Below are positions 6,793-59,424 of a stretch of 64,000 bases of DNA, piece by piece. Location of the stretch: the NCBI GenBank assembly GCA_001314625.1, contig LJSH01000001.1:248001-312000 (forward strand). Reading direction: 5' to 3'. Numbering within the stretch: position 1 is the stretch's first letter; each line of letters opens with the position of its first letter. Under the pieces are notes generated by a model. That model was not told the DNA's origin and made no database searches. It saw only the letters and a program-made list of their open reading frames with translations. This DNA is from Oceanicaulis sp. HLUCCA04 (GTDB lineage Bacteria; Pseudomonadota; Alphaproteobacteria; Caulobacterales; Maricaulaceae). The position numbers and the translations under genes were made by a program.

Positions 6793-6811
6793 TCCCGGGT
6801 CAAGCCCGGGA
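6793..6811. repeat. Palindrome with TCAAG loop (type D)
   Basis: Perfect 7-bp arms TCCCGGG and CCCGGGA flank TCAAG. It is 47 bases downstream of the queA stop and can serve as a terminator-like hairpin, though no T-run follows. Confidence 0.6.
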
Positions 6812-28902: not shown

Positions 28903-29373
28903 ATGAAGCTGAGTACGAAGGGCCGCTACGCGGTCATGGCGATGGCAGATCTCGCCAGCCACACTGACGCAAGCCCGGTTCCACTGGCCGAGATTGCGTC
29001 GCGGCAGGAAATCTCGCTGTCCTATCTTGAACAGCTTTTTGCGCGCATGCGCCGGGCGGGCATCGTCAAGGCCGTGCGCGGTCCGGGCGGAGGTTACCGG
29101 CTGGCGCGCGCCGCCGCCGATACCCGTATTTCCGACATCATCCTGTCGGTGGACGAGCCGGTAGATATCACGCGCTGCCAGCATCAGACGAAGGGGTGCA
29201 TGGAAAGCGGACAGCGCTGCATAACCCACGATCTTTGGGACGAGCTGTCGCGTCACATCCATCTCTATCTCAGCTCGGTCAGCCTGGAAGATGTGGTCAG
29301 CAGCCGCATAGCCGGTTCGGCCAGCGGCCCGCGCGGCATGGCGGCAGCCTTGAGAGCAGCAGCGGCAGAGTAG
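28903..29373 (+). CDS. iscR: Rrf2-family Fe-S sensing repressor IscR
   Basis: IscR is the transcription factor that reads cellular Fe-S status and controls Fe-S assembly genes. This 156-residue protein has the winged helix-turn-helix (MKLSTKGRYAVMAM..., SYLEQLFARMRRAG, RGPGGGYRLAR). The cluster ligands are Cys92, Cys99 and Cys106, with His109 after them. The cysteines are spaced C-x6-C-x6-C rather than the C-x5-C-x5-C of E. coli IscR. The ATG at 28903 follows GCAGGAGA. It heads the suf operon; iscS begins 9 bases after its stop. A Rrf2 relative such as RirA is an alternative, but the Cys pattern and context favour IscR. Confidence 0.9.
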   Translation: MKLSTKGRYAVMAMADLASHTDASPVPLAEIASRQEISLSYLEQLFARMRRAGIVKAVRGPGGGYRLARAAADTRISDIILSVDEPVDITRCQHQTKGCMESGQRCITHDLWDELSRHIHLYLSSVSLEDVVSSRIAGSASGPRGMAAALRAAAAE

Positions 29374-29381
29374 CAGGTTCG

Positions 29382-30521
29382 ATGAGCGTCTATCTGGATC
29401 ATAACGCAACCAGCCCGTTGCGCGCCGACGCGCGCGAGGCGATGGCGCGTGCGTATGATTCCGGTGCCAATCCGTCTTCAGTGCACGGAGCCGGTCGCAT
29501 GGCACGGGCGATCGTGGAGACCGCGCGCGGGACAATCGCCAGGCATTTCGTGACGCGCGCCGAAGATGTTGTTTTCACGTCCGGTGGGACCGAAGCCAAC
29601 AATCTCGCCATTGCATCGGCGCAGGCTGCGGGTGCTAAGCGGCTCATCATTTCGGCTATCGAGCATGATGCGGTTCGCGATGCGGCCAATGCCAGCGGGC
29701 TTGAAGTAGAAACACTGCCGGTAACGGCAGATGGCGTTGCCAATCTGGACTGGCTGGATCAACGCCTGTCCGGCTGGGATCGCGAGGCTGACGGCACGCC
29801 GTTTGTGGCGCTGATGGCGGCCAATAACGAAACGGGTGTCATCCAGCCCGTGGAGGCTGCCGGGCGCCTGGTGCGCGAGGCTGAAGGTCTGTTCCACGTC
29901 GATGCGGTGCAGATGGCCGGCAAGGCCGTGTTCGATTTCGCCGGCAGCCTCGCCCATTACGCGGCCGTTTCTGCGCACAAGTGCGGCGGGCCGCAAGGCG
30001 TGGGCGCGCTGCTGCTGGCCTGCGATGCCCCAATCTCCCGCCAGATGCATGGCGGGGGGCAGGAGAAGGGCCGCCGTTCGGGCACCGAAAATGTGGCGGG
30101 GATTGCCGGCTTTGCTGCTGCGCTGGACGCCGTGCAGGCCGACGAGGCTTCACGTATGGCAGGCCTGCGCAATGAACTGCAAGTCCGGCTGGAATCGGTA
30201 GAGGGCGTGCGCATATGGGGGGCAGGGGCGTCACGCCTGCCCAATACGCTGTGCCTGTCGGCCACCGGCTGGGCGGCCGAAATACAGGTTATCGCCATGG
30301 ATCTGGCGGGCTTTGCCATCAGCGCAGGGTCTGCCTGTTCATCGGGCAAGGTGAAGAAAAGCCGCGTGCTCGAAGCGATGGGGGCGAGCGCGGAGGAAGC
30401 CGCCAGTGCCATCCGCATCAGCCTTGGCTGGACGACGACGCAAGATGATGTCGACCGCTTTGCGGACGCCTGGATGCGCGAATACGCGCGTATCCGGCCC
30501 CGGATAGCGGCGGCGGAATAG
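29382..30521 (+). CDS. iscS: Cysteine desulfurase, NifS/IscS class
   Basis: This PLP enzyme takes sulfur from L-cysteine for Fe-S clusters and other thio-cofactors. The 379-residue protein begins MSVYLDHNATSP and has TSGGTEANN, HVDAVQMAGK, the PLP lysine in SAHKCGGPQG (Lys200), RSGTENVAGI, and the mobile cysteine loop SAGSACSSGKVKKS near 323. This is group I, unlike the SufS enzyme later in the operon, so the operon carries two desulfurases. The ATG at 29382 is preceded by GCAGGTTCG. It lies between iscR and sufB, with a 22-base gap to the latter. Confidence 0.93.
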   Translation: MSVYLDHNATSPLRADAREAMARAYDSGANPSSVHGAGRMARAIVETARGTIARHFVTRAEDVVFTSGGTEANNLAIASAQAAGAKRLIISAIEHDAVRDAANASGLEVETLPVTADGVANLDWLDQRLSGWDREADGTPFVALMAANNETGVIQPVEAAGRLVREAEGLFHVDAVQMAGKAVFDFAGSLAHYAAVSAHKCGGPQGVGALLLACDAPISRQMHGGGQEKGRRSGTENVAGIAGFAAALDAVQADEASRMAGLRNELQVRLESVEGVRIWGAGASRLPNTLCLSATGWAAEIQVIAMDLAGFAISAGSACSSGKVKKSRVLEAMGASAEEAASAIRISLGWTTTQDDVDRFADAWMREYARIRPRIAAAE

Positions 30522-30543: not shown

Positions 30544-32049
30544 ATGCCTGCTGTGAAGGAAACGATTGAAGACGTACGCCGGCTTGAGGCCGACAAGTAC
30601 AAGTATGGCTTCACGACCGAGATCGAGCAGGAGTTCGCGCCCAAGGGTTTGAGCGAGGACACCGTCCGTTTCATTTCGGAGAAAAAGGGCGAGCCGCAAT
30701 GGATGCTCGATTGGCGTCTTGACGCCTATCGCCGCTGGGTGGAGATGACCGAGCCCACATGGGCCAATGTCCATCACCCGAAAATCGACTATCAGGATGC
30801 GTACTATTACGCGGCCCCGAAAAATGCATCCAAATACAAGTCGCTGGACGAGGTTCCTGCCGAACTGCTTGAAACCTACAAGAAGCTGGGCATCCCGCTT
30901 CGTGAGGCCGAAGTCCTGCTGGGCGTGGAAGGTGCCGAGGACCGCACCGCTGCCGAAGCACGCGAAGCGCCGCGCGTGGCTGTCGATGCCGTGTTCGATT
31001 CCGTCTCTGTCGCTACGACCTTCAAGAAGGAGCTGGAAAAGGCCGGCGTGATCTTCATGCCGATCTCCGAAGCGCTGCAGCAATATCCCGATCTGGTGCG
31101 CCAGTATCTGGGCAGTGTGGTGCCAGTGACCGACAATTATTTTGCCACGCTCAACAGCGCGGTCTTCTCAGACGGCTCGTTCGTCTATGTGCCGCCGGGC
31201 GTGCGCTGCCCGATGGAGCTGTCGACCTATTTTCGCATGAACGCGCAAGGCACCGGCCAGTTCGAGCGCACGCTGATCATCGCCGACAAGGGGGCCTACG
31301 TCTCCTACCTCGAAGGCTGTACCGCGCCCATGCGCGATGAAAACCAGCTGCACGCGGCGGTCGTGGAGCTGGTCGCGCTGGACGATGCCCAGATCAAATA
31401 CTCCACCGTGCAGAACTGGTGGCCGGGCGATGCCGAAGGCAAGGGCGGGGTCTATAACTTCGTCACCAAGCGCGCCGATTGCCGGGGCAAAAATTCCAAG
31501 GTCAGCTGGACTCAAGTCGAGACCGGCTCTGCCATCACCTGGAAATACCCGTCCTGCGTGCTGCGCGGGGATAACAGCCAGGGCGAGTTCTACTCCATCG
31601 CGGTGACCAATGGCCGCCAGCAGGCCGATACCGGCACCAAGATGATCCATCTGGGGCGCAACACGAAATCGCGCATCATCGCCAAGGGCATATCGGCCGG
31701 GCGCTCTGACCAGACCTATCGCGGCCTCGTTTCGGTCCATGCGAAAGCGGAAGGCGCGCGCAATTTCACCCAGTGCGACAGCCTGCTGATCGGTGATCAG
31801 TGCGGTGCGCACACCGTGCCTTATATTGAGGCGAAGACGCCCAAGGCCATTCTGGAGCATGAGGCGACCACCTCGAAACTCTCCGATGACCAGCTCTTCT
31901 ATGCACGCTCGCGCGGGCTCGACGAGGAAACGGCGGTGGCCCTGCTCGTCAACGGCTTCTGCCGCGAGGTCTTGCAGGAATTGCCGATGGAATTTGCCGT
32001 CGAGGCCCAGGCGCTGCTGAAAGTCTCGCTGGAAGGGAGCGTGGGGTAA
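30544..32049 (+). CDS. sufB: Fe-S cluster assembly scaffold SufB
   Basis: SufB is the scaffold of the SufBC2D complex on which clusters are built in the cytoplasm. The 501-residue protein shows the family blocks [12 protein letters not shown] near the start, [32 protein letters not shown], and [17 protein letters not shown]. It has the conserved [15 protein letters not shown] with its functional Cys, [16 protein letters not shown], and [15 protein letters not shown], and ends with the beta-helix and helical tail. The start ATG 30544 follows AAGGAAGGA. The stop TAA shares its last base with the ATG of the unknown gene that follows, so that gene rides on sufB translation. Confidence 0.96.
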
Positions 32050-32558
32050 TGGGGGCTGATTTTTTAGTACCTGCGGCTGCAGTGGTGCTGAGTGCAGTGA
32101 TCTCGGCCTTGGTAGGTTGGTGGGTAGCGCAACGCCAGATTTTGCTTGCGGAGAGGTCAAACCACCTTGCCGCTGCTGACAAGATCGCGGGCTTTCGTCA
32201 AGCTTGGATAAATGAACTCCGAGAGGCGATATCGGAATTCCAGTCAGTCGCAACGGTCGTTGGAGATGTTAGATCAGACGAGAGAATATACCGGCTCGGA
32301 ACGAAGAGCGAGCTTATGATGAACACCGAAGATGATGATTATCTGGAGCTTGTGAGCTGTCTATATAGTTACTTGGATTATAAGAATTTGACTATTGAAG
32401 AACGTTGGCAGTTTAACGCTCCCCTCGTTTCCGTTTCTCAAAGAATACTGAAGCGGGAATGGGAGCGACTGAAAGCTGATCTGAACGCAGCTGCCAAATC
32501 CAACCGCATGCCACATTCTTGGACTGAACGGGGAAACAAAGACGCGCTTGCCGGTTAG
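32049..32558 (+). CDS. Unknown membrane-anchored protein inserted in the suf operon
   Basis: A 169-residue protein has one N-terminal transmembrane helix (about 5-26, FLVPAAAVVLSAVISALVGWWVAQ). A long cytoplasmic helical region follows (SNHLAAADKIAGFRQAWINELREAISEF), then an acidic NTEDDDYLEL stretch and a C-terminal basic helix. The AFRQAWINELR-type motif is shared, as far as I recall, by uncharacterised membrane-anchored bacterial proteins; no function is assigned. Its central and 3' parts fall to about 33-45% GC (around 32281-32400), far below its neighbours. The ATG overlaps the sufB stop (TAATG), and sufC starts 33 bases downstream. It is probably an acquired gene, not a Suf component. 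Confidence 0.75.
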   Translation: MGADFLVPAAAVVLSAVISALVGWWVAQRQILLAERSNHLAAADKIAGFRQAWINELREAISEFQSVATVVGDVRSDERIYRLGTKSELMMNTEDDDYLELVSCLYSYLDYKNLTIEERWQFNAPLVSVSQRILKREWERLKADLNAAAKSNRMPHSWTERGNKDALAG

Positions 32559-32591
32559 TCAGTGAAAACACCGAATTGAAAGCCAACTGAT

Positions 32592-33356
32592 ATGCTTGAA
32601 ATCAAAAACCTCCATGCCCGCGTGAACCCGGAAGAGGGTGAAGCCAAGGCCATCCTGAAAGGCGTCGACCTGACCGTGCCGGCGGGCGAGGTGCACGCCA
32701 TCATGGGGCCGAACGGGTGCGGAAAATCCACGCTCTCCTACGTCCTCTCTGGCCATAATGGTTATGAGGTGACGGACGGCTCTGTGAGCTTCCTTGGCGA
32801 GGAGATTGGCGAGCTGGAGCCCGAAGAGCGCGCCGCGAAGGGCCTCTTCCTGTCTTTCCAGTACCCGGTCGAGATACCCGGCGTGCCGACCCTGACCTTC
32901 CTCAAAGAGGCCGCCAATGCGCAGCTCGAAGCGCGCGGGGAAGGCGAGATCAGTGCGCCTGAATTCATCAAGCGCGCGCGGGAAAATGCAGCAAAACTGG
33001 GCATTTCCAACGAAATGCTCAAGCGCCCTGTAAATGTCGGGTTTTCCGGCGGCGAGAAGAAGCGCATGGAGATTTTCCAAGCGATGATGCTCGAGCCGAA
33101 ATTCCTGATCCTCGACGAGACCGATTCCGGCCTCGATATCGACGCGCTGCGCGTGGTGGCTGATGGCGTGAATGCGCTGCGCAGCCCTGAGCGCTCCATG
33201 CTGGTCATCACCCACTATCAGCGCCTTCTGGAATACCTCAAACCCGATGTCGTCCACGTCATGGCCGATGGCCGGATCGTGAAGACCGGCGGGCCGGAGC
33301 TGGCGCTTGAGCTGGAAGCTGAAGGCTATGAGAAGTTCAGCGGAGCGGCAGCTTGA
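32592..33356 (+). CDS. sufC: Fe-S assembly ATPase SufC
   Basis: SufC is the ABC-type ATPase of the SufBC2D complex. The 254-residue sequence has Walker A GPNGCGKST at about 38-46, a Q-loop region in LFLSFQYPVEIPGV, and the ABC signature NVGFSGGEKKRME. Walker B is FLILDETDSGLDIDAL, and the H-loop follows in MLVITHYQRLL. These match SufC specifically, including the PVEIPG and HYQR motifs. The ATG at 32592 has a weak ribosome binding site, possibly because an inserted gene displaced the original sufB-sufC spacing. It ends in a TGATG overlap with sufD. Confidence 0.97.
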   Translation: MLEIKNLHARVNPEEGEAKAILKGVDLTVPAGEVHAIMGPNGCGKSTLSYVLSGHNGYEVTDGSVSFLGEEIGELEPEERAAKGLFLSFQYPVEIPGVPTLTFLKEAANAQLEARGEGEISAPEFIKRARENAAKLGISNEMLKRPVNVGFSGGEKKRMEIFQAMMLEPKFLILDETDSGLDIDALRVVADGVNALRSPERSMLVITHYQRLLEYLKPDVVHVMADGRIVKTGGPELALELEAEGYEKFSGAAA

Positions 33357-34453
33357 TGGGTGTGATCCCCCAACTTTCTGCGTTTGAAGCGGCGCTGGCG
33401 GCGAGCCTCCCGGCGGGCGATCTGCGCAGCGTGCTGGAAAGCGGCGGCCTGCCGCACCGGCGCGTGGAGGCGTGGAAATGGTCTGACCTTCGCGGCGCGC
33501 TCGCCAGGGCACCGTCAGGGGCGGGCGCGCTGACCGTTGATGTGTCTCGCAAGGCGGATCAGATCGCCAGGCTTGACCATCAACCCGACCTGCTCATGCC
33601 GCGCCTTGCGGCGGGCCTGTCGGATGGCTGCCCGGTTTATGACCTACAGGACGGCGAGACGCTTTCCGTGGGCTTTGAGGCCGGTGAGGGCGCATCCCAC
33701 CATATCGCCGCCGTCAACGTGCCTGCGGGCGTTAACGCCATTCTGCGCGAGCGCTATCACGCCGCGCCGGGCGGTTTTGCCAATATCGCCCTGCGTATTG
33801 TATTGGGCGAGGGCGCCAGCCTGACGCGCATTGTCGAGCAGGATGCCTCGCCGGACGGCGTGCTGGTCGTGACGACCGGGATTGATCTCGCCGCCCGCGC
33901 AAACATGCACCAGACGACGCTCGGCTTTGGCGCGAAGCTCGCGCGCCTCGAAACCCATGTCAGCCATGCGGGCGAGGGCGCGCAGCTGAGCCTTGGCGGC
34001 TCGTATCTGGTCGCGTCGGGCCTCCATCTCGACCAGACGGGCATCGTGCAACACACAGGCCCGAACGGCGCCACGCACGAGCTGTTCAAGGGCGCGGCTG
34101 CCAAGGGCGGACGCGGTGTCTTTCAGGGCAAGATCCATGTGGAACAGGCCGCCCAGAAGACCGATGCCCAGATGAACCATCGCGGGCTTTTGCTGGCCGA
34201 TGGTGCGGAAATCCATGCCAAGCCGGAGCTGGAGATTTACGCCGACGATGTGGTGTGCGCGCACGGCAATGCGCTCGGCGCCGTCGATGACGAGGCGCTG
34301 TTCTACATGCGCCAGCGGGGCCTGACCGAGCCACGTGCCCGCGCCCTGCTGACGCGCAGCTTCCTGGCGGAACCGCTCGAGGCGATTGAGGATGAGACTG
34401 TCCGCGACGCCCTGCTGGCCAGGCTCGATGCAGCGCTGGAGGCGGTATCGTGA
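33356..34453 (+). CDS. sufD: Fe-S cluster assembly protein SufD
   Basis: SufD is the SufB-like partner in SufBC2D. The 365-residue protein has the weak N-terminal region typical of SufD (GGLPHRRVEAWKWSDLRGAL) and a beta-helix with RIVLGEGASLTRIVE. Its most conserved part is at the end: GRGVFQGKIHVEQAAQKTDAQMNHRGLLL, AEIHAKPELEIYADDVVCAHGNALG, and FYMRQRGLTEPRARALL. The His in VCAHGN aligns with the functional His of SufD. ATG 33356 forms a TGATG overlap with sufC; a TTG at 33353 is one codon earlier. The stop overlaps the GTG of sufS. Confidence 0.93.
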   Translation: MGVIPQLSAFEAALAASLPAGDLRSVLESGGLPHRRVEAWKWSDLRGALARAPSGAGALTVDVSRKADQIARLDHQPDLLMPRLAAGLSDGCPVYDLQDGETLSVGFEAGEGASHHIAAVNVPAGVNAILRERYHAAPGGFANIALRIVLGEGASLTRIVEQDASPDGVLVVTTGIDLAARANMHQTTLGFGAKLARLETHVSHAGEGAQLSLGGSYLVASGLHLDQTGIVQHTGPNGATHELFKGAAAKGGRGVFQGKIHVEQAAQKTDAQMNHRGLLLADGAEIHAKPELEIYADDVVCAHGNALGAVDDEALFYMRQRGLTEPRARALLTRSFLAEPLEAIEDETVRDALLARLDAALEAVS

Positions 34454-35691
34454 CAGCCTTGGCCCGTACCCTTTCCGGCTTTGATGTGAACGCCGTCCGC
34501 GCGCAATTCCCGATCCTGTCGCGCCAGGTGCACGGCAAGCCGCTGGTCTATCTCGATAGCGCAGCCTCGGCGCAAAAGCCGGAGGCCGTTATCAATGCGC
34601 TGGGCGATGTCTGGCGTGGCTCCTACGCCAATGTGCATCGCGGCCTGCACACGCTCGCCAATGAAGCGACAGAGGCGTTCGAGGCGACGCGCGGCAAGCT
34701 GGCAGCGTTTCTGGGCGCGGCGCGCAGTGAAGAGATCGTACTGACGCGCGGCACCACCGAGGCGATCAATCTGGTCGCCTCCGGTATCGGTCTGGACCTG
34801 AAGGAGGGTGACGAAATCATCCTCAGCCAGATGGAACACCACTCCAATATCGTGCCCTGGCACTTCCTCCGCGAGCGCAAGGGCGTGGTCATTAAATGGG
34901 TACCGGTGACGGATGAAGGCGCATTGGATATAGAGGGTTATAGAGCTATCTTCACGCCACGCACGAAGATGGTGGCGCTCACCCACATGTCCAACGTGCT
35001 CGGCACGCTCAACGACGCAAGAGCGCTGACGGAGATCGCGCACCGCCACGGCGTGCCGATCCTGCTGGACGGCTCGCAGGCCGCGGTGCATGGCCCGGTC
35101 GATGTCGCCGCCATTGGCTGTGATTTCTACGCCATCACCGGCCACAAGCTTTATGGCCCCAACGCCACCGGCGCGCTCTACGCGAAGGGTGACTGGCTGG
35201 AGCGCCTGCCCGCCTTCATGGGCGGCGGGGAGATGATTTCCGAGGTCAGTGAGGATGCGGTCGTCTACGCCGCGCCTCCGCACAAGTTCGAGGCCGGGAC
35301 GCCCGCGATTGCCGACGTGATCGCCCTGGGCACAGCGCTCGACTGGATGGGCGCGCACGCAACGCCAGAAGCCATCGCCCATGAGCATGCCCTGATGCAG
35401 ACAGCAACGGACGGGCTGCAGGCAATGGACGGTATCCGTATTCTGGGCACAGTACCGGGCAAGGGTCCGATGGTGTCCTTTGTCGTTGAGAATGCCCATG
35501 CGCACGATATCGCCCAACTGATGGACCGCTACGGTTTGGCGGTGCGGGCAGGCCATCACTGCGCCCATCCGTTGATGAAGCGGTTTGGCGTAACCGCCAG
35601 CGTGCGGGCCAGCTTTGCGGTGTACAACACCGCCGACGATGTCGACGCCTTCCTCGACGCCTTGCGCCGCGCGCGCGAATTTCTCATCTAA
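34450..35691 (+). CDS. sufS: Cysteine desulfurase SufS
   Basis: SufS is a group II PLP cysteine desulfurase that passes sulfur to the Suf scaffold, normally through SufE or SufU. The 413-residue protein has DVNAVRAQFPILSRQVHGKPLVYLDSAA, the VHRGLHTLANEA block, and RGTTEAINLVA. The PLP lysine is in ITGHKLYGPNATG (near 236), and the active cysteine is in RAGHHCAHPLMKRFG (near 370). It starts with GTG at 34450, overlapping the sufD stop by 4 bases. No sufE or sufU gene is seen in this operon; it could be elsewhere. Confidence 0.95.
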   Translation: MTALARTLSGFDVNAVRAQFPILSRQVHGKPLVYLDSAASAQKPEAVINALGDVWRGSYANVHRGLHTLANEATEAFEATRGKLAAFLGAARSEEIVLTRGTTEAINLVASGIGLDLKEGDEIILSQMEHHSNIVPWHFLRERKGVVIKWVPVTDEGALDIEGYRAIFTPRTKMVALTHMSNVLGTLNDARALTEIAHRHGVPILLDGSQAAVHGPVDVAAIGCDFYAITGHKLYGPNATGALYAKGDWLERLPAFMGGGEMISEVSEDAVVYAAPPHKFEAGTPAIADVIALGTALDWMGAHATPEAIAHEHALMQTATDGLQAMDGIRILGTVPGKGPMVSFVVENAHAHDIAQLMDRYGLAVRAGHHCAHPLMKRFGVTASVRASFAVYNTADDVDAFLDALRRAREFLI

Positions 35692-35701
35692 GGTGCAGGA
35701 G

Positions 35702-36148
35702 ATGACACCGGACATGCCCGCCACTGACGCCACCACCGGACCGGCCCGCCAGCGCGATGTGATCGATCTGGGGGCAGGGCCTTCGCGCCCCGTCGCGCCG
35801 GAAACACAAGCCGACGGTGAAGGCGCTATTCCAGCCGAGGAAATCGCGCGGATCACCGATGATGTGGTGACCGCACTCAAAGGCGTGTTCGACCCGGAAA
35901 TTCCGGTCGACATCTATGAGCTGGGGCTGATCTACAAGGTGGATCTGGAAGACGATCATACCTTGAAGGTGGAAATGACGCTGACCGCGCCCGGCTGCCC
36001 TGTGGCAGGTGAAATGCCCGGCTGGGTCCAGGATGCCTGCAATACGGTTGATGGTGTGGAGCGCACCGAGGTCAATCTGACCTTTGATCCGCCCTGGACG
36101 CCTGACCGGATGACCGACGAAGCCCGCCTGCAACTGAATATGCTCTAG
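35702..36148 (+). CDS. sufT: MIP18/DUF59-family Suf maturation factor (SufT-like)
   Basis: This 148-residue protein of the DUF59/MIP18 fold assists Fe-S delivery to targets. A flexible N-terminal part (about 1-45) precedes the core GVFDPEIPVDIYELGLIYKVDLED, with the conserved DPE-x-P-V motif, and the LTAPGCPVAGEMPGWVQDA segment with a conserved Cys. The family C-terminus VNLTFDPPWTPDRMTDEARLQLNML follows. It matches the SufT proteins found in suf operons of alphaproteobacteria. The ATG at 35702 follows CAGGAG, 10 bases after the sufS stop. Confidence 0.88.
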   Translation: MTPDMPATDATTGPARQRDVIDLGAGPSRPVAPETQADGEGAIPAEEIARITDDVVTALKGVFDPEIPVDIYELGLIYKVDLEDDHTLKVEMTLTAPGCPVAGEMPGWVQDACNTVDGVERTEVNLTFDPPWTPDRMTDEARLQLNML

Positions 36149-36156
36149 GAGTCGAT

Positions 36157-36516
36157 ATGGCCCGCGAGAGACCCAAGCCCGTCACCCTGACTGAACAGGC
36201 TGCCAAGCGTGTGCGCGCCCTCATGGAACGGGAGGGAAAGGGATTCCTGCGTGTCGGGGTGAAGAATGGCGGCTGCGCGGGGATGGAATACACGATGGAC
36301 TATGTCGAGGCCCCGGCGCCGCTCGACGAGCGGGTCGAAGATCAGGGCGTGGAAATCGTGATCGATTCCAAGGCGATCCTGTTCCTGCTGGGCAGTCAGA
36401 TCGATTACGAGATCACGCCGCTGCATGCCAAGTTCGTGTTTCGCAATCCCAACCAGACCGATGCGTGCGGGTGTGGCGAAAGCGTCACCATTATTCCTGT
36501 GGCAAACGCGGTCTAG
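36157..36516 (+). CDS. sufA: A-type Fe-S carrier SufA
   Basis: This 119-residue HesB/IscA-fold carrier transfers clusters from the SufBCD scaffold to apoproteins. The core is VTLTEQAAKRVRAL, then the first ligand Cys in KNGGCAGMEYTMDY and the C-terminal pair in DACGCGES, giving the standard three-cysteine set. SufA versus IscA or ErpA is judged from the suf context and the GMEY variant of the usual GFSY motif. The ATG at 36157 follows TAGGAGTCGAT, 8 bases after sufT. It is the last recognised suf gene in the operon. Confidence 0.9.
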   Translation: MARERPKPVTLTEQAAKRVRALMEREGKGFLRVGVKNGGCAGMEYTMDYVEAPAPLDERVEDQGVEIVIDSKAILFLLGSQIDYEITPLHAKFVFRNPNQTDACGCGESVTIIPVANAV

Positions 36517-36575: not shown

Positions 36576-37181
36576 ATGCAACTTTTCTATTCGCCGACCT
36601 CGCCTTACGCGCGCAAGTGCCGGGCGCTGATTATTGAGAAAAGTCTCGAAAGCAAGATCGAGCTGGTCGAGGTTTCGCCGCTGGACGATCCTGCCGCGCT
36701 GCTGGAGGTCAACCCTCTTGGCAAGGTGCCAGCCCTGATCCGCAAGAGCGGACCTGCCCTGATTGATTCACCGCTGATCTGCGAGTTTATCGACACGCTG
36801 GATGATGAGCGCTGGATACCAGCCAAAGGCGAGAGCCGTATTCTGGTGATGCGTCAGCAAGCTATTGCCGACGGTCTGATGGACCTCACCATTGGCCGGC
36901 GTATCGAAAAGAACCGAGATGCGAAACTGCAATACAAGCTGTGGGTCGAGCGGTGGGAACGCGGCATCGCCCGCACGCTTGACGAGCTTGACCGGGAGCG
37001 TGGCCAGTTTGAACGGTCGGTGGATCATGGCGCTTTGTCGATCGCTGTAGCGCTCTCCTATCTCGACCTCAGGTATGCCGAGCTGGACTGGCGCGGCGCC
37101 CATCCCGAACTGGCAGAGTTTCTGGATCGCTGGGAGCAGCGCGAGAGCCTGAAAATGACCGTGCCGCCAGCAAGCGCCTGA
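36576..37181 (+). CDS. Glutathione S-transferase family protein
   Basis: This 201-residue cytosolic GST-like protein begins MQLFYSPTSPYARKCRALI, with an N-terminal thioredoxin fold. Ser at position 9 or 10 is a candidate catalytic residue. The glutathione-contact NPLGKVPALI and the DSPLICEFIDTL segments follow. The C-terminal helical domain begins at about residue 85 with ILVMRQQAIADGLMDL and carries a final SYLDLRYAELDWRG stretch. The class and substrate are undetermined. The start follows TTCGGGGGCTTTC. It may be co-transcribed with sufA, 59 bases upstream. Confidence 0.88.
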   Translation: MQLFYSPTSPYARKCRALIIEKSLESKIELVEVSPLDDPAALLEVNPLGKVPALIRKSGPALIDSPLICEFIDTLDDERWIPAKGESRILVMRQQAIADGLMDLTIGRRIEKNRDAKLQYKLWVERWERGIARTLDELDRERGQFERSVDHGALSIAVALSYLDLRYAELDWRGAHPELAEFLDRWEQRESLKMTVPPASA

Positions 37182-37206
37182 GCGTCGCGGATTGATTCAG
37201 GTCCGG

Positions 37207-37926
37207 TCAGTCTGGTGTCGCCGGTGAGGCAAGGCGCGCCTGTGCACGCTTGCCACTGACATAGGCTATCAGCCCAATCAGGAAAAACGCCATGCCCGAC
37301 ATGGGTCCGAATGGCGGGGGCAAGAGATACGCCGAAGCGATGACCAGCACGGTCAGCAGGCCCGTTCCGGCAGCGACTTCAATCTCGTAGCGGGTGAAAG
37401 ACCGCTCGGTGTCATCAAGCTCAATCTGGTCGCCGAGGCGCAGCGCGTGGCTGTAGAGCAGGACGAACACCATCTGCACGGCGATATAGAATATCCCGTA
37501 GACGAGATAGAGATGGGCGACCTGATCAACCGTGATGACCGCTTGCACCTCTGCTGTCGAGGCGAAGCCGCCAGTGAACAGGTTGAAAAAGAAGTCAGCC
37601 ATGAATTTGAGCGGATAGATAAAGACCAGGATCAGACAGAGCAGGACGGCGTTGAGAAACACTGTCCATCCATCCTGCAGATTATAGCGCCGGAAGAAGA
37701 CGTGATGCGTGTGCCAGATGCTCAATATCAGGGCGAAGCACGCGGCCATCGACAAACCGTTGCGCCAAAGGTTGGTCAGATCGTCAAAAGACGCGGGAAC
37801 GCTATTGGCGGCCGCCAGCGTCAGAACCAGCGCGAACACGATGTCGGAGAGGTTTTCTACGCGGCTGACTTCAGGGCTGCGCCATTTGAAATGCGGTTCA
37901 CCGCGCAGCAAAGGGTGACGGGACAT
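37207..37926 (-). CDS. TMEM175-like (DUF1211) membrane protein
   Basis: A 239-residue protein with six predicted transmembrane segments fits the bacterial TMEM175/DUF1211 family, whose studied members are potassium channels. The first helix carries RVENLSDIVFALVLTL, close to the family's R-x-x-x-FSD motif but with Leu in place of Phe. The family's WHTHHVFFRRY-type histidines appear in helix 3, and a FFNLFTGG loop follows. The substituted LSD and the short length leave the transport function open. The ATG at 37926 is reasonable. It is a single gene on the - strand between convergent GST and the diguanylate cyclase. Confidence 0.7.
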   Translation of the reverse strand: MSRHPLLRGEPHFKWRSPEVSRVENLSDIVFALVLTLAAANSVPASFDDLTNLWRNGLSMAACFALILSIWHTHHVFFRRYNLQDGWTVFLNAVLLCLILVFIYPLKFMADFFFNLFTGGFASTAEVQAVITVDQVAHLYLVYGIFYIAVQMVFVLLYSHALRLGDQIELDDTERSFTRYEIEVAAGTGLLTVLVIASAYLLPPPFGPMSGMAFFLIGLIAYVSGKRAQARLASPATPD

Positions 37927-38012
37927 GCGGACTCCTCACGGCGGTTGCGCTGCGCGAGAAGCATTGTCAGGCGATTTCGCCGATGTGGAAAGCGGGCAGT
38001 TGGCGGCAGCTC

Positions 38013-39068
38013 TCAGGCCGCCGCTACGCCTGACTGTGCCTCGACACTGTCCACGGTGACACGGTTACGGCCCGTCTGCTTGGACTTGTAGAGATTGGTG
38101 TCGGCCCGTTCGATCAGCGATTCGACCGACTCGCCAGTCGCATGCTGGGACACGCCCATCGACACGGTGATGTGCCCGAGATCCTCATTGGTGGACTTGC
38201 GAAGCAGGCGCTTGGACTCAACGGTTGCACGGATTTTCTCGGCAACGCTGGCAGCGTCTCCAATTGTCGTTTTTGGCATCACGATCGCGTATTCTTCGCC
38301 ACCATAGCGCGCAACGATATGCGTATCCTTGGCAAACCGGGACAGGCAGGCAGCCACAAAGCGTATGATCTGGTCGCCAGTCTGATGGCCCCAAGTGTCA
38401 TTGAACCGCTTGAAATGGTCGATATCGCAAAGGATCAGGCAGAAATCATCGCCCTGCAGCTCTGCATCGCGGCGGGCCTTGCGCATGGATTCGTCAAAAC
38501 GCTTGCGGTTGGCCAGGCCGGTGAGGGCGTCGGTCATCGCCTCCTCACGGACCTTCTCAAGATTATTGCGAAGCTGGTTTACCTCGACGGAGGTTTCCTG
38601 CAGGCGGCGTTCCAGCTCGCGCGAGCGGCGCTGCATGCGCGCGGTGGCTGAGACCAGCCCCTCCACCATCCGCTTGAAAGCCACTGAATCGGGTGCTTCA
38701 CCCAGCTGCCCGGAAGCGCCGGCCAGAGCTTCGCCATAGGCGGCCGTATCGCGTTCAGCCGCTTCGAGTGTCTTGACGACGGCGCCCAGCTCCCGGCTCA
38801 TCGCGCCACCGGTGTCCAGCACTGCATCCTGTATGCGCTTGAAGGTGAAGTGGCGATCATAAAGCTCGTCGCACACGTCATCGTTTACCGGACCGCCCTT
38901 GTCGATGGCACTCTGGATGGCTTCGGACAATTCCGGAATGGAGTCTGACACATACGCCACCCAGACGGCGTAGTTTTGCGGGGTGGGAGCAACTGAATAC
39001 TCTGCCATCATATCCAGCGCGCGCCGCGCCAGATCAATGCCTTCATGCGTTTGCAATCGACCGTTCAC
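38013..39068 (-). CDS. Diguanylate cyclase with a GGEEY site
   Basis: This 351-residue GGDEF-domain protein is predicted to make cyclic di-GMP. Residues 1-160 form a helical region without a recognised sensor; a coiled coil (RRSRELERRLQETSVEVNQLRNNLEKVREE) then leads into the catalytic domain at about 186. That domain has the DALTGLANRKRFDES start, CDIDHFKRFNDTWGH and the active-site loop RYGGEEYAIVMPKT. The four residues five positions before GGEEY are KDTH, so the RxxD product-inhibition site is absent. ATG 39068 is chosen. The orphan N-terminal part shares AEYSVAPTPQNYAVWVAYV-like text with alphaproteobacterial cyclases, from memory. Confidence 0.9.
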   Translation of the reverse strand: MNGRLQTHEGIDLARRALDMMAEYSVAPTPQNYAVWVAYVSDSIPELSEAIQSAIDKGGPVNDDVCDELYDRHFTFKRIQDAVLDTGGAMSRELGAVVKTLEAAERDTAAYGEALAGASGQLGEAPDSVAFKRMVEGLVSATARMQRRSRELERRLQETSVEVNQLRNNLEKVREEAMTDALTGLANRKRFDESMRKARRDAELQGDDFCLILCDIDHFKRFNDTWGHQTGDQIIRFVAACLSRFAKDTHIVARYGGEEYAIVMPKTTIGDAASVAEKIRATVESKRLLRKSTNEDLGHITVSMGVSQHATGESVESLIERADTNLYKSKQTGRNRVTVDSVEAQSGVAAA

Positions 39069-55709: not shown

Positions 55710-57131
55710 ATGGCTGAGAAACGCAATGCCCGTGACCTGACGCAAGGGCCGGTCTTCGGCCACCTTATGCGCATGGTCATCCCGCTGAGCTTTGGCATCG
55801 TTGCCATGATGCTTGTCGGCATTGTCGACGCCTACTGGGTCGGGCGGCTGGGCACGGTCCAGCAGGCTGCCGTGCAGTTCGTCTTTCCGGTTTCGATGGC
55901 CGTGATGAGCATCGCCATCGGCCTCGGGGCCGGTGCGGTTTCCGTGGTCGCGCGCGCCGCCGGGCGCGGCGATGACGGGCGCACAAAGCGCGTGGCCACC
56001 GACGCCGTCATTCTGGCGCTTGTCATCACCGCGATTACATCAGCGATCGGCATTGCCCTGATCGGCCCGCTTTTCCGCCTGATGGGCGCGAGCGAAGCGA
56101 TGATGCCGTTCGTGCATGATTACATGACGATCTGGTTTGCCGGCATCATCTTCATGGTCGGCCCGATGATCGCCAGCAATATCTTGCGCGCGCTGGGCGA
56201 TGCGATTCTGCCCAGCATCATCATGATCCTCGCTGCCGTGCTGAACATGATCCTCGACCCGATCTTGATCTTCGGCCTGGGTCCGATCCCGGCCATGGAA
56301 GTACAAGGGGCGGCGCTGGCCACGCTCATCTCCAACCTTGTTGTCTTCGTGGTGGCTATGGGGATCATGATTTTCCGCGAGAAGATCATTGATCTGTCCT
56401 GGCCCGGCTTTGCCGAAATGGCGTGGAATTGGGGCGAGATCGCGCGGATTGGTGCGCCTGCCGCCGGCTCGAACATGATCAATCCGATGGCGATGACGCT
56501 GGTGTTCGCCGCTGCGGCTCGCTTTGGCGAGCCCGTTGTGGCGGGCTTTGGGGTGGCTCAACGGCTTGAAGCGCTTGCCCTTATTCCGTTGTTTGCGCTC
56601 TCCGGCTCCATCGGCCCCATCACGGGCCAGAATGGCGGGGCCGGGCATGTGGACCGTGTGCGCGAGGCATTCCGTTCGGCCTTCATGTTCTGCGTGGGCT
56701 GGGGTGTGGCGATGGCTGTGTTGCTGGCTGCACTGGCCTTTCCGCTGTCCTGGCTGTTCCTGCCGTCCGAGGAAGGGCAGGCCATGGCGCGCCTGACCTG
56801 GTGGATCGCGCCGGTGACGATGGGCGGATACGGCATCGCCATGGCCGCCGCCGCCGGCTTTAACGGGCTTGGCCGCCCTCTGCTGGGCGTGGGGATCAAC
56901 CTGACGCGCTGTTTTGCCTTGCTGGTGCCGCTGGTCTGGCTGGGTGCCACGCAATTCGGCCCCGCTGGCATGATCGGCGGCTACGCGCTGGCCAATGTGC
57001 TGGCAGGCGTTTTGATCGCGTTTGTCGTGCTGCGCTACGCCCCGATGACCGCCATCGAAAGCAAGACCCGGCCCGTTGTACCGCCCTCACAGGCAGCGCG
57101 TGCCGGGGTGCCGGTCAAGCCCGCCGAGTGA
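55710..57131 (+). CDS. MATE-family multidrug efflux transporter
   Basis: This 473-residue protein has twelve transmembrane segments and the MATE (MatE) architecture in two six-helix halves. It begins with RDLTQGPVFGHLMRMVIPLSF and includes GVVDAYWVGRLG-like helix 1-2 text, GLGAGAVSVVARAAG, the second-half ARIGAPAAGSNMINPM, and NGLGRPLLGVGINL. It should export cationic drugs or metabolites by Na+ or H+ antiport. ATG 55710 follows CCTCGCTT with a weak ribosome binding site. Its stop TGA directly abuts the stop of the convergent gene at 57132. The substrate is unknown. Confidence 0.9.
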   Translation: MAEKRNARDLTQGPVFGHLMRMVIPLSFGIVAMMLVGIVDAYWVGRLGTVQQAAVQFVFPVSMAVMSIAIGLGAGAVSVVARAAGRGDDGRTKRVATDAVILALVITAITSAIGIALIGPLFRLMGASEAMMPFVHDYMTIWFAGIIFMVGPMIASNILRALGDAILPSIIMILAAVLNMILDPILIFGLGPIPAMEVQGAALATLISNLVVFVVAMGIMIFREKIIDLSWPGFAEMAWNWGEIARIGAPAAGSNMINPMAMTLVFAAAARFGEPVVAGFGVAQRLEALALIPLFALSGSIGPITGQNGGAGHVDRVREAFRSAFMFCVGWGVAMAVLLAALAFPLSWLFLPSEEGQAMARLTWWIAPVTMGGYGIAMAAAAGFNGLGRPLLGVGINLTRCFALLVPLVWLGATQFGPAGMIGGYALANVLAGVLIAFVVLRYAPMTAIESKTRPVVPPSQAARAGVPVKPAE

Positions 57132-57323
57132 TCAGGCGTTGATGATTTCAACGCGCCGCTGAATCGAGGTGGTCGACCAGATCAGCGCTACCACCCAGCC
57201 AATGACGGTCCAGCCCAGAAGCAGGTTTGTCAGGAAGATGGCAAAGCCGTTGTGATGGCCGCGCAGCAGAGCGATCAGCGTGGGCAGGAAGTGACCAACC
57301 AGTAGAAGAACGAGGATTTCCAT
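57132..57323 (-). CDS. Superinfection-immunity-like small membrane protein
   Basis: A 63-residue protein has two transmembrane helices: MEILVLLLVGHFLPTLIALLRG, then AIFLTNLLLGWTVIGWVVALIW. The PTLIALLRGHHNG turn and NLLLGWTVIGW motif match the superinfection-immunity (Imm_superinfect) family, named after a phage T4 protein that blocks entry of second phage. Chromosomal members are common, and their role is unproven. The start at 57323 follows GGAAACCGCA. It is isolated, abutting the MATE gene 3' end. Confidence 0.75.
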   Translation of the reverse strand: MEILVLLLVGHFLPTLIALLRGHHNGFAIFLTNLLLGWTVIGWVVALIWSTTSIQRRVEIINA

Positions 57324-57427
57324 TGCGGTTTCCCTTTATCGATTGTCGATAAAGGTAAGGCGATTTACCGCCCGTGCAAGTGACAGGTTCGTAATCTTGC
57401 GAGTTGTCTTGGCCGGGTATGGGGTTT

Positions 57428-57555
57428 CTCCCCCGCCTGCGGGGGGGGTGAGAAGCAAAGCTTCGAACACGCGAAGCGGCGAGGGGGGGGGATGTATAAA
57501 AGCTCCCCCCCGTCTCGCATTCGCTCGACACCTCCCCGTAAACGGGGGAGGAAAT
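57428..57555. repeat. GC-rich repeat cluster with G-tracts
   Basis: The region holds a CTCCCCCGCC/GCGGGGGG near-palindrome, a GAGGGGGGGG run facing a CTCCCCCCCG run about 15 bases later, and a CCTCCCCGT-AA-ACGGGGGAGG hairpin. The whole forms several stem-loops within 130 bases. It lies between the small immunity-like gene and the acyl-CoA ligase gene. No gene is supported between 57324 and 57586. Confidence 0.55.
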
Positions 57556-57586
57556 CACTGGCTCGGATTGCCCCGAACCAGGTGAG

Positions 57587-59230
<1,644 letters not shown>

Positions 59231-59424
59231 GGCGCTTGTCCTCCCGCTCAAAAGCTTCCGGGCCATTGTAAGGGATCCGGCACCAGCCAGCCTCCCGAAG
59301 CCCTGTTCTAAAAGTTGCCGATATCAAAGGCGTGCCCGCGCTGCGATGCAATACCTTTTGCGCAACTTGTCTTCAGCAGATATGGCCGTAGTGCAGCGCG
59401 TGGCCAGTATGCGGAGGCGAGAGG

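Follow-up and report, generated by a model that had tools for sequence, protein, structure and literature searches.

The window, by which we mean the whole 64,000-nt stretch of the Oceanicaulis sp. HLUCCA04 genome analysed here, carries an isc-suf operon on its plus strand with the gene order iscR-iscS-sufB-[ORF]-sufC-sufD-sufS-sufT-sufA. The iscR position is occupied at 28903–29373 (Pfam Rrf2, 1.4e-39; collinear in relatives), followed by an iscS/nifS-type cysteine desulfurase gene at 29382–30521 (Aminotran_5, 8.6e-55; start set by comparison with relatives) and sufB at 30544–32049 (SUFBD_core, 4.5e-80; 89–98% identical in five congeners). Downstream of the interposed ORF lie sufC at 32592–33356 (a SufC-type ABC ATPase with an ABC_tran match, 91–96% identical in four congeners), sufD at 33356–34453 (SUFBD_core, 4.1e-59), sufS at 34450–35691 (Aminotran_5, 9.3e-133), a SufT-like gene at 35702–36148 (FeS_assembly_P, 1.1e-17), which we take to be sufT, and a sufA-type carrier gene at 36157–36516 (Fe-S_biosyn, 7.7e-18). 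In local alignments a short leader preceding sufC (32564–32590, plus strand) is common to two congeners (G008 and G009) and not to two others (G010 and G012).

The interposed plus-strand ORF at 32049–32558 (referred to hereafter as the cargo gene) starts with an ATG at 32049, ends with a TAG at 32556–32558 and comprises 169 codons with no internal stops. The A of its ATG is the final base of the sufB TAA, creating a TAATG overlap at 32047–32051, and 33 bp separate its stop from the sufC start. An intact 169-residue ORF overlapping sufB in this manner was what an earlier, sequence-only reading of this DNA had described, and its coordinates proved right. As the cargo ATG overlaps the sufB stop, ribosomes could re-initiate here, expressing the gene with an unbroken suf operon, and co-expression with suf in this genome is plausible on the strength of the overlap. 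Between 31900 and 32750 no terminator-like site was found, and the one promoter-like site is on the minus strand (0.4 expected). The low GC content noted in the same reading was also borne out: it is 0.498 for the whole gene (GC3 0.500), with minima of 0.36 over 90 nt and 0.448 over 250 nt, against 0.573–0.670 (median 0.620) in a set of 26 ORFs of the window with conserved counterparts in three congeners, of which at least one (35684–36133) is the opposite strand of a real gene. A protein search found no second copy of the gene in its own genome, where profile A4 gave one weak match elsewhere (E 2.5e-4, inside a 454-aa frame), and plasmid and phage collections yielded no protein match.

The encoded protein is predicted to combine an N-terminal membrane helix with a helical bundle. 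Residues F5–Q28 (24 residues) are uncharged and are followed by R29 and then by a long charged helix, and a single membrane helix with N-out/C-in topology is therefore likely. An AlphaFold2 model built from a 17-row alignment (mean pLDDT 89) has helices at 6–70, 75–89, 98–110 and 123–152, the first of which would leave the membrane and pack with the further helices. Nine residues are the same in all 17 rows (R50, Q51, W53, I54, R58, L134, E137, W138 and K142), and the family motifs are FRQxWIxxLR ... N ... ILKxEWxxxK. Neither Pfam nor NCBIfam has a model covering the protein or its scanned relatives (best Pfam match DUF5615, 16.8 bits against a cut-off of 23.8; no NCBIfam match), and no known Suf/Isc protein family was matched in these two collections. 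No Foldseek hit reached E ≤0.001 (the best had E 0.23 in PDB and 0.044 in BFVD), and a PDB sequence search gave one match at E 0.67. VIA-align retrieved sensor-type (QseE, NarQ, Tar) and BRIL-containing four-helix bundles at Z ≤12.7, the sensor-type ones at the head of the list; such values are common among helical bundles, and the similarity may reflect a widespread arrangement.

All six genomes of the genus carry sufB (89–100% identity to the window's SufB), and their sufB–sufC junctions give six different readings (five contents by automatic ORF-family count, which is a rough one). None of the five congeners holds the cargo gene. In G008 the junction is occupied by a barstar ORF (PF01337, 3.8e-14) followed by a palindromic REP-like element, in G009 by this palindromic element alone, in G010 by two other ORFs in ~1.2 kb and in G012 by a small membrane ORF, while in G011 it is empty and ~70 bp long. 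The REP-like element (about 4530–4720 in L023) has a core that matches window positions 6793–6810 with two mismatches. Absence from all five congeners, together with low GC and nearest relatives of 40–50% identity in other taxa (MAGs and genomes named Nitrosomonadales, Burkholderiaceae, Acidobacteriaceae and Rhodobacteraceae), supports the foreign origin proposed in the sequence-only reading; comparison of the relatives' suf operons showed a gene that is neither syntenic throughout nor neighbour-like in GC. The gene is no one-off: what that reading missed is that the junction itself is probably a hot spot, where the congeners hold other contents or almost nothing.

Close comparison of these junctions suggests how they may change. 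The G008 gap exceeds that of G009 by 342 bp and two TGATG copies flank the G008 barstar ORF, so that G009 and G008 form, to judge from their sequences, a natural before/after pair for barstar insertion. The G008 barstar ORF and the unrelated first ORF of G010 have their first 21 bases in common, as though a newcomer had been fused to the start of an old resident. That first G010 ORF (L021 5171–5542, minus strand) finishes with 18 bases identical to the sufB 3' end, and its last residues, EGSVG, thus repeat the end of SufB; the longest other copy of the sufB 3' end in any genome is 11 bases, and of the sufC start 12. From these scars in G008 and G010 we infer a history that would fit recombination among suf operons. 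In the window genome, the last 150 bases of sufB and the first 150 of sufC are 0.91–0.97 identical to those of four congeners, and an imported divergent donor flank in either gene was therefore rejected.

The variability is greater here than at most nearby junctions. Across 25 junctions between 26 conserved ORFs (28–64 kb, compared in four to five congeners), the sufB–sufC gap has a range of 1132 bp, and only two of the other 24 vary by >500 bp (ranges 767 and 1200 bp). These two lie at 56558–59266 and 36576–39068, and a TMEM175-type gene occupies the latter in the window. Across the family, 115 of 137 genomes yielded sufB; G016, G035, G039, G048, G124 and G134, in which it lies ≤1.7 kb from a contig end, were left out. 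Of the 109 remaining loci, 98 could be measured, whereas in 11 sufC was not found in the stretch. With gene starts extrapolated from alignments, the sufB–sufC gap has a median of 784 bp (range 3–2502) and exceeds 250 bp in 83/98 loci, compared with 0/95 for sufC-sufD, 5/92 for sufD-sufS, 1/89 for sufS-sufT and 0/75 for sufT-sufA. Close relatives differ in what they hold between conserved flanks, and sufB–sufC shows an excess over the suf control junctions and over most of the 24 window junctions.

In a class-wide draw sufB was present in 77 of 115 genomes (the window's included), and among 69 loci analysed, 67 of which could be measured, the median sufB–sufC gap was 29 bp, with five exceeding 250 bp, one of them (L161) from the same order. 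Other junctions of the class sample also exceeded 250 bp, namely sufC-sufD in 8/39 (253–304 bp) and sufS-sufT in 8/24 (329–460 bp), an excess that is perhaps partly due to extrapolation of starts in divergent genes. Two further families of the order were represented by 60 loci, the best-scoring of 60 and 37 genomes and hence a non-random set. In the first (f2), 16/30 gaps exceeded 250 bp and 14/30 were ≤250 bp, several of them 0; in the second, 21 of the 24 measured among 30 loci exceeded 250 bp, sufC lying beyond the 1.5-kb flank in five loci and one being at a contig edge.

What fills the junction in the family was catalogued from an automatic list of 191 ORFs, of which 156 (plus strand, ≥70 aa) were kept and one was added by hand; the list includes false ORFs, so that some of its cargo ORFs are probably no genes, and it misses some genes (e.g. 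one in G073). These ORFs form 28 clusters, 12 with at least two members and 16 singletons, with Pfam names (cupin, RidA and barstar confirmed) resting on one representative per cluster. The most widespread are a cupin (36 genomes, 8 genera) and a RidA/L-PSP cluster (31 genomes, 8 genera), followed by a secreted-type (22 genomes, 3 genera), a lipoprotein-type (21 genomes, 7 genera) and a small membrane protein cluster (7 genomes, 3 genera). The window protein's family (4 genomes, 3 genera), the MGETVTLYRPVG-type ORF (4 genomes in the list, 4 genera), a SnoaL-like (3 genomes, 2 genera) and a barstar cluster (2 genomes, 2 genera) are rarer, and three further small clusters complete the set. Barstar-type genes were seen at sufB–sufC at L020 4191–4535 (minus strand) and L065 1515–1877, in two genera.

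By ORF-family count, 44 different junction contents occur in 98 genomes. The figures count genomes and not separate events, since several genera have inherited their RidA, cupin and lipoprotein occupants by descent, and genus g18 has two contents in 15 genomes. RidA-type and cupin genes recur as a sufB–sufC pair in several genera (L025, L026, L027 and many g11/g17 loci) and may be a set of long-term residents. The sufB stop was overlapped by an ATG at 58 of 87 family junctions of at least 150 bp, a count inflated by shared descent, and 48 of these open a frame of at least 60 codons; with random bases at the two positions that follow an A-ending stop, about 1 in 16 would be expected.

We consider it probable that the 32049–32558 ORF is accessory cargo and that the sufB–sufC interval of the isc-suf operon is an insertion hot spot, widespread in this family and in two further families of the same order. 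The gene is probably expressed with suf without being a part of the Suf machinery. Single small genes or short series of them fill the junction and are not the same in close relatives, as though they came in, displaced one another and were lost; they would arrive horizontally and turn over. Most often their left edge is the sufB stop codon, overlapped by the cargo ATG. Relatives may exchange such genes by recombining within sufB and sufC, the conserved flanks. The window protein itself would have its own role at the inner membrane, as a stress or defence-type accessory, and not in Fe-S assembly. A dedicated recombination apparatus was not seen at the locus: the Pfam scan of the nine neighbouring genes contained no recombinase, no tRNA was found at 25–40 kb of the window, and positions 31950–32700 gave no attC-like match. 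The suggestion that the gene might be selfish found no backing either, the ORF having no recombinase match and its junction no attC-like site.

Relatives of the window protein are scarce and scattered. They were found in 6/137 family genomes, four of which have them at sufB–sufC (G000, G055, G059 and G098), whereas those of G105 and G125 are on contigs other than that of sufB, their own sufB–sufC gaps being complete. In an order sample 7/398 genomes matched, four of them outside the family with no suf gene within 1.5 kb; a phylum sample gave 14/398 (the window's included), and 38 loci came from scanning named genomes. Eight of these 38 (L279, L281–L284, L286, L289 and L290, from records of Rhodobacteraceae, Paracoccaceae or Roseobacteraceae) hold a relative at the junction between an AAA ATPase and a DUF6638 gene, these neighbours having been identified by Pfam in L290 and by tblastn in the other seven. 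The idea of a family bound solely to suf was dropped because of such Rhodobacteraceae-type loci, and the AAA/DUF6638 junction is a possible second operon-internal hot spot. Some of these loci carry a further small ORF.

A bolder form of the hot-spot reading, which we advance tentatively and would sooner doubt than accept, makes sufB–sufC a dedicated, integrase-free berth for cargo, in which genes are swapped by flank recombination and expressed under iron control through stop/start coupling. The window protein's family would then be a mobile berth cassette with the AAA/DUF6638 junction as its second berth, and the same sufB–sufC position would have been filled independently in a distant bacterium, by momL in Muricauda, a member of the Bacteroidota.

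Cargo of this kind could also have been delivered by an integron, an integrase having inserted the cassette at a non-classical genomic (attG-type) site with the attC being lost later. Insertion at attG sites is described in PMC12901181, which cites Loot et al. 2024. The best-scoring relative, L276 (Burkholderiaceae), adjoins an integron integrase (TIGR02249; 371.9 bits against a cut-off of 265). At the end of this relative lies a 78-nt attC, whose GCCCAAC/GTTAGGC boxes match and which forms a hairpin (z −1.9; 8 of 200 shuffled sequences fold equally well). L238 of the phylum sample adjoins another integron integrase (439.6 bits), and attC-like ends are present in L303 and L235. However, L275 and L278 have attC-like ends that do not fold as hairpins, strict attC-like ends occur in 3/56 relatives compared with 16/1120 random stretches, and the window junction itself has no such match. 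We regard an integron origin of the window copy as unlikely.

About equally unlikely, in our estimate, is that the gene is an orphan immunity or defence gene, directed against toxins or phages and parked on a core operon. The barstar genes at sufB–sufC (PF01337 in G008 and, by sequence similarity, G096) point in this direction, as do relatives of the window protein in four viral contigs and the position of the L278 relative between AAA_13 and AAA_21 (AbiEii-type) ATPase genes. Against it, PADLOC-DB 2.0 gave no family at E up to 10 for the window protein, no PHROG of known function was matched and none scored above cut-off, the direct neighbours are sufB and sufC, and the fold is a generic helical bundle.

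The sequence-only reading had also raised modulation of Suf complexes at the membrane, i.e. a protein that tethers or tunes SufB or SufBCD at the inner membrane and whose placement reflects its function. This is the less likely role, and as an explanation of the locus we hold it improbable. A functional link to Suf keeps some standing because, of the six family genomes in which a relative occurs, four carry it at sufB–sufC, more than random placement would give, and the tight TAATG overlap is in keeping with it. Yet 131/137 family genomes, including 5/5 congeners, have no match, so that presence of the gene does not track that of the suf operon across relatives; better-scoring relatives adjoin an integron integrase or occupy the AAA/DUF6638 junction; and at sufB–sufC the gene is interchangeable with a barstar, with lipoprotein-like ORFs and with a near-empty gap.

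The same explanation draws support from a second rare occupant, the MGETVTLYRPVG-type ORF, a 120-aa family with a start like M(G/S)ETVTLYRPVG (L268–L274, L313–L338; e.g. L086 7665–8027). It is present in 7/137 family genomes and all seven copies are in the suf operon, six at sufB–sufC (two directly after sufB and four directly before sufC) and one between iscS and sufB. In an order sample it was found in 32/299 genomes, with sufB or sufC within 1.5 kb in 18 of 30 loci and not in 12. It looks like a suf-linked gene of unknown function, and it may be the C. crescentus ORF of PMC11475020. Some occupants may thus truly be linked to suf, which keeps the Suf-modulator explanation alive for the window gene as well.

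Least probable is that the gene is an old resident, an ancestral part of a sufB-x-sufC arrangement lost in most lineages, with a low GC reflecting relaxed drift. The five own-family members then known did form one clade (98/96) in a tree whose added relatives were phylum-wide ones only, and the AU test did not reject one common origin for the four copies located in suf (p 0.12, which decides neither way). With named relatives added, however, that clade is gone and 4% of bootstrap trees unite the four copies. The window protein scores 246–274 against Burkholderiaceae, Nitrosomonadales, Rhodobacteraceae, Fibrobacter (MAG) and Acidobacteriaceae compared with 91–115 against the other three copies in suf, the reading would require many losses, and in G055, G059 and G098 other genes precede the relative, which lies directly before sufC.

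If the insertion hot spot between sufB and sufC is real, it would lie inside a core iron-regulated operon and bacteria could plug new genes into an existing regulated transcript. It would account for the odd genes reported singly between sufB and sufC, and would yield a catalogue of small proteins of unknown function that are probably expressed. Natural before/after pairs, G009 and G008 among them, would also allow the growth of operons by insertion to be tested.

Genes at this junction have indeed been met before, one at a time. In C. crescentus, the genes at the sufB–sufC junction are co-transcribed by RT-PCR, all primer pairs across the tested junctions having given a band, and the ORF there shares its operon and junction with the window gene while being a different protein by annotation; in the cited portion of that paper it is presented as one exception to the E. 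coli gene order and not as a variable locus (PMC11475020). Rhodobacter sphaeroides has a hypothetical gene, RSP_0439, between sufB and sufC, a placement shared with the window gene, and the authors remark on some variation of non-annotated ORFs there in Rhodobacteraceae, although the passages concerned do not treat the position as an insertion site (PMC4618611, PMC6956336). In Muricauda olearia Th120, the AHL lactonase gene momL is inserted between sufB and sufC and co-transcribed with suf, a location that its authors call unique; the junction is shared with our locus, with a single unrelated gene in a distant host (PMC5484670). Among the titles and abstracts of open-licence PMC articles, we found none that describes repeated insertion at sufB–sufC.

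Most descriptions of hot spots for foreign genes place them at tRNA genes, prophage sites or intergenic islands, and both integration hot spots and integron cassette arrays are recurrent sites with changing cargo between conserved genes. The sufB–sufC junction shares with them the recurrent site and the changing cargo, and some relatives of the window protein are themselves cassettes. Unlike such hot spots and arrays, it has no recombinase in the nine neighbouring genes, no tRNA (25–40 kb) and no attC-like match at the junction, and it is situated inside a core metabolic operon, often with a stop/start overlap.
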